NCBI GenBank assembly: GCA_038400315.1
Contig: CP151667.1
Coordinates: forward strand, 6,459,174-6,523,173
Length of the DNA stretch: 64,000 bases
Source of the DNA: Isosphaeraceae bacterium EP7
GTDB taxonomy: Bacteria > Planctomycetota > Planctomycetia > Isosphaerales > Isosphaeraceae
Direction: 5' to 3'
Below the pieces are notes generated by a model. It was given only the letters and a program-made list of their open reading frames with translations. It made no database searches and had not been told where the DNA came from. Shown one piece after another: positions 35,888 to 38,347 of the stretch; position 1 is the stretch's first letter; each line of letters begins with the position of its first letter. Made by a program: the position numbers and the translations under genes.

Positions 35888-36101
35888 CCGACCCGTCGAC
35901 TCCTGCCCGCTCCCCACGCCCGGGCCCCGCCGGGGGGAGCCCACGCCCCCGGACCCGGCTTGACCGGGGCGGGTGCGTCCCTAGACTGGAAGCCGTCTCG
36001 CGCGATCCGCCGCCTGTGGCTCGTCCGACCGATCTCCCGACCGAACCGGCACCTTTTTCCGGCCGGGCGCCCGAACTCTCCGCCGCCGCGGGACGTACCC
36101 A

Positions 36102-36749
36102 ATGACGAAGGCTCTGGAATCGGACGCGACCCTCGACCTCGCCTCCACAACGGACGAGGCCCTGATCGGCCGCTACCGCGACGAGGGCCGGACGCAGGAC
36201 TTCAACGAGCTCGTCCGACGCTACGAGCGCGAGCTGTACCGCTACCTGGCCCGTTACCTCGGCGACCCCGCGCTCGCGGAGGACGTGTTCCAGAACACGT
36301 TCCTCCAGATCCACCTCAAGCGGGCGCTCTACGAGGACGGCCGACCATTCCGACCCTGGCTCTACTCGATCGCCACCCACCAGGCCGTTGACACGCTGAG
36401 AAAAGTCGGGCGGCACCCCACCGTCAGCCTCGATCAGCGCACCAGCGGCGGCGACGACTCGAACTCGGGGACCTTGGTCGACCTGCTCGTGAAAGACGAG
36501 CCCGGCCCCCTGGCCGCGCTCCAGGGCCAGGAACGCGAACAGTGGGTTCGAGACGCCGTCGCCAAGCTCCCCGAAGTCCTCCGCCAGACGCTCACCCTCG
36601 CCTATCACCAAGATCTCAAGTACCGCGAGATCGCCGAAATTCTCAAAGTCCCGGTCGGCACAGTCAAGTCTAGGTTGCACGCCGCGATGGCCAAGTTGCA
36701 GGACATGGCCCGCGCCGCCGACCGTGACGCAGACGGATCGATGCCATGA
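36102..36749 (+). CDS. ECF-type RNA polymerase sigma factor
   Basis: A 215-residue sigma-70 family factor with region 2 (FNELVRRYERELYRYLARYLG, then AEDVFQNTFLQIHLKR and FRPWLYSIATHQAVDTLRK) and region 4 (LPEVLRQTLTLAYHQDLKYREIAEIL, then VPVGTVKSRLHAAMAKL), each partial. Both helices needed for -10 and -35 recognition are present. The stop overlaps the next start in ATGA (36746-36749), so the sigma factor and the membrane protein that follows are translationally coupled, as expected for a sigma/anti-sigma pair. The target regulon is unknown. Confidence 0.93.
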   Translation: MTKALESDATLDLASTTDEALIGRYRDEGRTQDFNELVRRYERELYRYLARYLGDPALAEDVFQNTFLQIHLKRALYEDGRPFRPWLYSIATHQAVDTLRKVGRHPTVSLDQRTSGGDDSNSGTLVDLLVKDEPGPLAALQGQEREQWVRDAVAKLPEVLRQTLTLAYHQDLKYREIAEILKVPVGTVKSRLHAAMAKLQDMARAADRDADGSMP

Positions 36750-37711
36750 ACTCATCTCACAAGCTCGACTATGCTCTCGGCCAGCTCGAAGGCCCCGAGC
36801 TGGCCGCCGCCGAAGCCGCCAGGGAGGCCGACCCCACCCTGGCCGCCGAGCTCGCTCGCCTCGGGCTAGCCCTGAGCCGGCTGGCCGACGACGGCCAGGA
36901 CGACATGCTACCCCCGGAAGGCCTCCGCTTCCGGACCGTCGCCTTCGTCGCCGAGGCCGAGCTGGCCCGGCCCAAACGCCGCCGGTTTCACGATCTGGCC
37001 CCCTCCACCGTCCCCTTCAAGTGGTCCGACGTCGCCGTCGCCGCCGGCATCTTCATCGCCGGCCTGCTGACCCTCATCCCTGCCGTCCAGCAAACTCGCA
37101 CGCGGTCGATGCTCGCCGGATGTGCCTTCAACCTCCATCAGATCGGCACGGCGCTCTCCCAGTACAGTGGCCAGCATCACGCTTTCCCGTTCGTCTCGCC
37201 CGAGAACCCCACCGCGCAAACCGGCACCTTCGCCGTGATCCTGCACGATGCCAAGCTCCTGAACAATCTGGACGCCCTCCACTGCCCCAGCAACAGCTCC
37301 GCCCGCCGCACTCCCCTGCCCGACTACAAAACCCTCTGCTCCTGGCGGCACACCGACCCCGAGGGGTTCAGGCAGGCCCTCAGCCTCGACTTCGCTTACC
37401 ATGTGGGCAATCGTCAGCCATCGGGTCGACCTTGCGCCGTCAAAGGGCAGCTCATCTCGAGCATCCCCATCCTGGCCGATCAGCCCCCCAATGACGGCGT
37501 CGCCAGAGTCATGGATGGGAACAGCCCCAACCACAATGGCCGGGGGCAGAACATCCTCTTCAGCGACGGCCACGTCCGCTATCGCCGGACCCGCTGGATC
37601 AGCGGTCACGACACCGACGTCTACCTGAACTCCGACGGGAAGGTTGCTCCCGGCACTGATCTGGATGACTCGGTGCTCGCCCCCAGCATCTTCCCCTTCG
37701 GCGGCCGTTGA
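36746..37711 (+). CDS. Putative anti-sigma factor fused to a pseudopilin-like (DUF1559-type) domain
   Basis: A 321-residue protein coupled to the sigma factor by an ATGA overlap. The N-terminal 80 residues (LDYALGQLEGPELAAAEAA) resemble the cytoplasmic helical part of anti-sigma factors. One membrane helix spans about 95-113 (VAVAAGIFIAGLLTLIPAV). Directly after it comes a DUF1559-like block, RTRSMLAGCAFNLHQIGTAL, and the C-terminus has HNGRGQNILFSDGHVRY, like the H-x-DG tail of planctomycete pseudopilin-like proteins but with one extra residue between H and DG. I infer an envelope-sensing anti-sigma factor whose outer domain is borrowed from pseudopilins. The usual zinc-binding H-x-x-x-C-x-x-C motif is absent. 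Confidence 0.8.
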   Translation: MNSSHKLDYALGQLEGPELAAAEAAREADPTLAAELARLGLALSRLADDGQDDMLPPEGLRFRTVAFVAEAELARPKRRRFHDLAPSTVPFKWSDVAVAAGIFIAGLLTLIPAVQQTRTRSMLAGCAFNLHQIGTALSQYSGQHHAFPFVSPENPTAQTGTFAVILHDAKLLNNLDALHCPSNSSARRTPLPDYKTLCSWRHTDPEGFRQALSLDFAYHVGNRQPSGRPCAVKGQLISSIPILADQPPNDGVARVMDGNSPNHNGRGQNILFSDGHVRYRRTRWISGHDTDVYLNSDGKVAPGTDLDDSVLAPSIFPFGGR

Positions 37712-37795: not shown

Positions 37796-38347
37796 TCAAG
37801 CCCGGGCGGCCTTCCGCCTGGCGTCGCAAATCAGCAATGCCAGCATCGTCTTGGCGTCATCGATCCGACCGTCGGCGACCATGGCCATTGCCTCGTCCCA
37901 GGTGACCACGATCGGCTCGATCCGCTCGTCGGGCTGATGCTCGGTCGGCCCGGGGCTCAGCTCGGTGCAGAGGAAGATGTGCATCCGCTCGGTCATCAGG
38001 GCCGGGGAGACCCACCAGGTCGACACCGGCTCGATCCGGCCCGCGCGATAGCCCGTTTCCTCGATCAGCTCACGCGCCGCGGTCGACTCGGGCGTCTCGC
38101 CGGGGTCGAGCGTCCCGGCGGGAATCTCCAGGATCGACCGCGCCGGGGGATAGCGGAAGTTGCGCACCAGGCAGACGCGGTCGGCGTCGACCATGGCCAC
38201 CAGCCCCACCGCCCCTGGGTGGATGATCACCTCGCGATCGGCGGTTTTGCCGTCGCTCAGGCGGATCGACTGCAAGGCCAGGTCGACCTTGCGCCCCTTG
38301 TAGATCACCCGCCGACCTTCCGGCCCGTCCGTCGTCGCTTCGTCCAC
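37796..38347 (-). CDS. Nudix hydrolase, ADP-ribose pyrophosphatase type
   Basis: A 183-residue Nudix enzyme. The Nudix box is complete: G-x5-E-x7-R-E-U-x-E-E-x-G-U within GTLDPGETPESTAAREL followed by IEETGY. Upstream are VYKGR-like (VIYKGRKVDLAL) and VCLVRNFRYPPARSILEIPAG, which place it in the ADP-ribose pyrophosphatase branch. It likely hydrolyses ADP-ribose or related nucleoside-diphosphate sugars in the cytoplasm. The C-terminal helix is typical. The next gene upstream on this strand starts beyond a 58-base gap. Confidence 0.92.
   Translation of the reverse strand: MDEATTDGPEGRRVIYKGRKVDLALQSIRLSDGKTADREVIIHPGAVGLVAMVDADRVCLVRNFRYPPARSILEIPAGTLDPGETPESTAARELIEETGYRAGRIEPVSTWWVSPALMTERMHIFLCTELSPGPTEHQPDERIEPIVVTWDEAMAMVADGRIDDAKTMLALLICDARRKAARA

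Follow-up and report, generated by a model that had tools for sequence, protein, structure and literature searches.

The window, by which we mean the whole stretch of 64,000 nucleotides analysed here, belongs to a genome of 7.2 Mb and carries two overlapping genes on its plus strand. The first encodes a sigma factor and the second a predicted membrane protein in which an anti-sigma domain is followed by a part related to DUF1559, a family of pseudopilin-like proteins. The features of the locus are the following:

36072..36097, plus strand: ECF-type promoter CGAAC-N17-CGTA, with GAAC at 36073-36076 (-35-like) and CGTA at 36094-36097 (-10-like)
36102..36749, plus strand: ECF sigma factor, with sigma2 at residues 37-104 and sigma4 at residues 147-199
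36746..37711, plus strand: predicted membrane anti-sigma factor with a pilin-type outer domain, 321 aa, its start overlapping the sigma stop (ATGA)
36746..36967, plus strand: class I anti-sigma domain, residues 1-74, a three-helix bundle plus helix 4 (60-74)
37016..37177, plus strand: helix resembling pilin alpha-1, residues 91-144, with the membrane span inside it; residue 91 is the counterpart of mature pilin residue 1
37028..37030, plus strand: codon of D95, which aligns with pilin Glu5 (an acid in 79/79 sequences)
37079..37081, plus strand: codon of P112, which aligns with pilin Pro22 (Pro in 76/79)
37121..37135, plus strand: CAFNL block (C126, N129, L130), corresponding to CxNNL of DUF1559
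37283..37288, plus strand: C180-P181, at the place of the CPSD block of DUF1559
37520..37594, plus strand: NSPNHNGRGQNILFSDGHVRYRRTR block, corresponding to HPGGxNxLFxDGSVRF of DUF1559

The sigma protein matches Sigma70_r2 (E 1e-16) and Sigma70_r4_2 (E 2.5e-15). It consists of sigma2 and sigma4 only, joined by a linker of fewer than 50 residues, and the gene for its cognate anti-sigma factor adjoins it; these are traits of ECF sigma factors, for which the domain content and promoter pattern were taken from PMC8103513. ECF promoters carry AAC at -35 and CGT at -10 (PMC8103513). We found YGAAC-N17-CGTA before the sigma gene at 69 of the 79 loci (43/43 in the family and 26/36 in the class), the spacer of the GAAC/CGTA dyad being 17, sometimes 16 or 18. 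The commonest gapped word upstream of sigma was shared by 43 sequences; shuffled sets gave 5 at most. At the window locus the promoter ends 4 nt before the sigma ATG. By its AAC and CGT elements, the dyad is a putative autoregulatory ECF promoter. The sigma ATG lies only 2-4 nt past CGTA, both in the window (36094-36104) and at about 37 of the 43 family loci, and precedes the usual ECF transcription start; in genus g18, the start is an ATG further downstream. This means either a leaderless transcript with a short spacing or a wrongly assigned start codon. Downstream, a NUDIX hydrolase gene (window positions 37796-38347, minus strand) converges with the sigma/anti-sigma pair; it is found at about 17 family loci and is absent at that place in the rest of the class.

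The N-terminal domain of the second protein matched two NCBIfam anti-sigma models (residues 8-113, E 2.3e-10; residues 8-82, E 5e-7), both matches lying below the model cut-offs, and residues 1-74 lack the HxxxCxxC zinc motif. The AlphaFold model of the 321-aa protein has a mean pLDDT of 89.8 and shows helices at 3-10, 17-28, 30-47 and 60-74 in the anti-sigma part, with a linker before the fourth, followed by a disordered stretch at 78-86, the long helix and an outer domain of small size. In structure comparisons, residues 1-54 aligned to RslA (3hug_F, Z 6.5) and ChrR (2z2s_D, 51 residues at 1.6 A), and also to RseA and MucA. Class I anti-sigma domains have been described with helix 4 (PMC7406223), and the predicted model has both the three-helix bundle and this helix. 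Such a cytoplasmic domain would hold the sigma factor inactive, and proteolysis is a probable route of its release. Altogether, the coupling of a sigma factor to an anti-sigma factor with a pseudopilin-like outer domain, first noticed in a sequence-only reading of this DNA, is confirmed in its two open reading frames, their ATGA overlap, the single membrane helix and the domains.

When the window sequence was searched singly, it missed the cut-off of DUF1559 (PF07596), with E 0.0039 and 17.7 bits against a gathering score of 23.3. Among the orthologues, 31 of 43 gave DUF1559 matches at E <= 0.1, the best at 1.3e-6. Moreover, when the profile of the fusion was compared with one built from 20 DUF1559 proteins of this genome, E was 1.2e-11 over 70 gapless columns (residues 87-156), in which the aligned segment of the anti-sigma protein is PFKWSDVAVAAGIFIAGLLTLIPAVQ; the anti-sigma part gave no match in this type of comparison. 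The C-terminal block, aligned separately to DUF1559, reached E 1.5e-5, and ten column shuffles gave 0.098 or worse. Homology to DUF1559 is found over both the N-terminal and the C-terminal blocks, so that the domain search of the outer part, through the orthologue matches and the profile comparison, bears out the assignment made from the letters alone. Two details of that assignment need correction. The DUF1559-type block was placed directly after the membrane helix; it is there, but the homology also takes in the helix itself, which that reading missed. Similarly, the DGHV-type tail is present, but it is the C-terminal block of DUF1559, as GQNILFSDGHVRY against GANILFGDGSVRF makes clear.

The gapless alignment places P90/F91 at the prepilin cleavage site and equates D95 with Glu5, P112 with Pro22 and C126 with Cys36. 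In the 79 class-wide fusion sequences on which the register counts are based, the spacings of 17 and 14 between positions 95, 112 and 126 are identical in 79/79, with zero indels. Position 95 is Asp in 77 and Glu in 2, position 112 is Pro in 76 and position 126 is Cys in 77. None of the positions from +6 to +22 is charged, and D95 is the sole strictly charged site of the membrane span. At -1, 62/79 sequences have Pro or Arg, the window protein having Pro, and 5 have Gly or Ala, the other 74 having neither Gly nor Ala; +1 is aromatic in 67/79 and +2 is Arg in 60/79. True DUF1559 proteins from this genome have Gly or Ala at -1, Phe at +1 and Glu at +5 in 37/37. Of the pilin hallmarks, the fusion protein lacks the Gly or Ala at -1 that marks a prepilin peptidase site and retains the acid at position 5 and the long alpha-1 helix (93-144 in the model).

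The structure model agrees with this register. From residue 90/91 to about 308 it aligns to pilins starting at pilin residue 1 (PilA4 of Thermus, CFA/III and TCP); the best score, to PilA4, is a modest Z of 5.7 over 118 residues, in the same register as the sequence alignment. A model of a true DUF1559 protein, of lower confidence (pLDDT 63), has the same best pilin, also from residue 1, with a Z of 5.9. Foldseek against the PDB alone returned no significant match. The idea that the sensor uses the fold of DUF1559 is backed, as far as the fold is concerned, by the sequence profiles, the structure model and the pilin register. The fusion protein shares with DUF1559 (PF07596, SBP_bac_10) pseudopilin-like proteins the alpha-1 helix with acid 5, Pro22 and Cys36, together with the CxxNL, CP and C-terminal GxNxLFxDG blocks. 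Unlike them, it carries an anti-sigma domain in place of the cytoplasmic leader, has lost the prepilin cleavage residue, scores under the Pfam cut-off and occurs in one copy per genome. On a plain reading of the alignment, an anti-sigma domain would have taken the place of the cytoplasmic leader of a DUF1559 pilin; cleavage would have been lost and the docking residues retained.

As the sequence-only reading had suggested, we looked for the fusion in other genomes. A single-copy, full-length orthologue is present in 43/45 genomes of the family (Isosphaeraceae), and the family profile is matched in 140 of the 261 good genomes from the class Planctomycetia; because orthologous fusions recur across the class, the fusion is not a chance event. 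In the family, the sigma orthologue lies directly upstream in 43/43 loci, with stop and start overlapping or a few bases apart. At the class loci fetched, it lies upstream on the same strand in 40/40: in 36 within 300 nt, and in the other four overlapping or about 300-430 nt off. Most checked genomes with a sigma orthologue and no strong profile match carry a diverged fusion next to sigma (G011 in part, G046, G053, G055, G061, G064, G076, G089, G091 and G114). G011 keeps the sigma gene beside a strongly diverged partner; at this locus (L257, in a near-complete genome) the membrane helix can be recognised, but there is a long N-terminus and a degraded Cys/Asn-Leu block. Neither gene was found in the fragmented assembly of G003, and both are missing in family f2. 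Among 343 genomes sampled from the phylum, fusion matches came from Planctomycetia only. In a contig scan, the anti-sigma protein as query gave no match, and the loci were picked up with the sigma profile. Paralogous sigma genes beside other proteins (L261, L270-L276) were set aside, having neither the promoter nor the partner. At L273 (G038), the ORF after a paralogous sigma gene is short and consists of the anti-sigma domain alone (profile positions 1-57), with neither pilin part nor promoter motif.

The promoter motif also gave candidate targets. In three genome-wide scans it was found 39, 42 and 45 times, against 20, 28 and 56 for the reversed control. The motif is hardly enriched, and therefore either the regulon is small or the motif is too loose. 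As this excess is too weak for the motif by itself to define a regulon, candidate genes were checked in a range of genomes. Two genomes had two targets in common: clpB and a zinc-ribbon membrane protein (L180, L211), the latter with the motif upstream in two genera. For clpB, the motif was found in 8/30 genomes, always 63-85 nt before the ATG and against a shuffle mean of 0.19, a set in which two of the eight are seed genomes and some are congeners; weight-matrix scores of the clpB upstream regions separate the same loci. The sequence-only reading had the sensor set transcription according to pseudopilin export or assembly. Taken as control of DUF1559 genes, this finds no support: with about 106 matches in this genome, none has the cognate promoter within 500 nt, and a direct upstream scan gave 0/22; these genes were therefore set aside as sigma targets. 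Two candidate targets are supported: the sigma/anti-sigma operon and, in part of the genomes, clpB.

From the fusion, its register and fold, the sigma coupling, the promoter and the clpB promoter in a subset of genomes, all of them computed results, we infer the binding of sigma, the nature of the signal and the proteolytic step. The reading that we prefer, and to which we give an even chance, is an autoregulated sigma/anti-sigma switch in which the pilin module senses contact with DUF1559 (pseudo)pilins in the inner membrane. The two genes would form a positively autoregulated ECF switch, with the class I domain of the second protein keeping sigma at the inner membrane. From the membrane helix outwards, the second protein would be a DUF1559 pseudopilin with an anti-sigma domain in place of its cytoplasmic prepilin leader; as the cleavage site is lost, the inhibitor would stay tethered. 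Since the docking register (acid 5, Pro22, Cys36) is kept, contact with DUF1559-type (pseudo)pilins would be the most likely signal. Docking, or its loss or overload, would change the outer domain and lead to sigma release, probably by regulated proteolysis. The freed sigma would then transcribe the operon that encodes it and also, in several lineages, clpB, which codes for a disaggregase; this output fits quality control rather than pilin production. The constant adjacency of sigma and fusion (43/43 and 40/40) and the joint absence of both genes in f2 speak for the switch.

Pilin Glu5 is invariant, and assembly depends on its pairing with the free Phe1 amine of a neighbouring subunit (PMC5059446). 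Monitoring of pseudopilin export or assembly by the outer domain is plausible, given that the docking acid that pilins need is kept in 79/79 sequences. In a protein that is not cleaved, the retained acid suggests that the membrane helix and outer domain most likely contact DUF1559 pilins, the state of this contact deciding sigma release. The uncleaved protein would have no free amine, and Arg at +2 could stand in for it. More tentatively, and at somewhat less than even chance, the anti-sigma factor may act as a pilin mimic that docks DUF1559 pseudopilins through the Glu5-equivalent acid, possibly with Arg +2, and reports their supply or assembly to the ECF sigma factor. Against docking, D95 may have been conserved to cap the helix where it meets the edge of the membrane, and Arg at +2 (R92, 60/79) may follow the positive-inside rule. 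Further points count against the preferred reading: the loci compared have no conserved pilus, secretion or DUF1559 neighbours, shared neighbours being scattered; no DUF1559 gene carries the promoter; the Z scores to pilins are modest; the genome-wide motif excess is weak or absent; and the clpB promoter is missing in 22/30 genomes.

A rival explanation we consider a serious contender, albeit with odds below even. The protein may be a general envelope-stress anti-sigma factor, cut by regulated proteolysis, whose pilin fold is an inherited scaffold that never touches pilins and senses misfolding, a ligand or the redox state. The Cys pair and the C-terminal block would keep the domain folded, and D95 would cap the helix. 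The promoter on clpB is in line with this explanation, as are the lack of a pilin target gene and of pilus neighbours. So is the promoter, in Tautonia and this genome, on a Zn_peptidase_2 membrane protease, for which the motif was found in 4/26 genomes, three of them of one genus, a weak recurrence. Envelope stress alone leaves unexplained why acid +5, Pro +22 and Cys +36 persist across the class without an indel.

Continued processing by prepilin peptidase, with a cut at 90/91 that frees the anti-sigma domain with bound sigma and sends the outer part to a pseudopilus, is very improbable. The aromatic +1 and the acid +5 would suit a substrate, but Pro or Arg occupies -1 in most sequences and Gly or Ala in only 5/79, and the freed domain would still inhibit sigma unless degraded. 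We give just as little credence to an outer domain that is only an anchor, with regulation on the cytoplasmic side: the anti-sigma protein is far more variable than sigma (mean column identity 47% against 73%), but its outer residues C180, D245, H263, N295 and D308 are invariant in 79/79 class-wide sequences.

The preferred switch resembles other pairs of an ECF sigma factor and a class I anti-sigma factor (RseA/RpoE, RskA/SigK and RsiW/SigW) in having sigma2 and sigma4 only, a partner gene immediately behind sigma, a helix 4 added to the first three, a single membrane helix and an AAC/CGT autoregulatory promoter. Unlike in these pairs, the outer part is a DUF1559 pilin-like module, whose homology begins inside the membrane helix. 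In Clostridium thermocellum RsgI (PMC12203970, PMC4711584), the outer domain of the anti-sigma factor is likewise related to the system watched; by their descriptions, RsgI proteins with biomass-sensing outer domains belong to the SigI/RsgI family and sense polysaccharides, whereas the protein studied here combines an ECF/class I system with a pilin module. Sigma factor, anti-sigma domain and pilin module are each known; we found no report of an anti-sigma factor joined with a DUF1559 or pseudopilin module, nor a description of the combination in preserved register, in the open-access literature, of which our coverage is incomplete. DUF1559 is among the largest planctomycete families, and Planctopirus limnophila cannot do without two of its members (PMC10632474). 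A conserved regulator made from a DUF1559 module offers a handle on the role of these pilin-like proteins and on how the cell watches over them. It would also show that a filament subunit can become a transmembrane transcription sensor through replacement of its leader peptide.

Finally, YGAAC-N17-CGTA was found exactly 8-9 nt before the transposase start codon in three insertion-sequence families of three genomes (L169, L199 and L227, one family; L171/L188; L207/L209/L213). The motif is placed as if transposition were under an ECF promoter, and stress-induced transposases have been reported in Rhodopirellula (PMC2754498).
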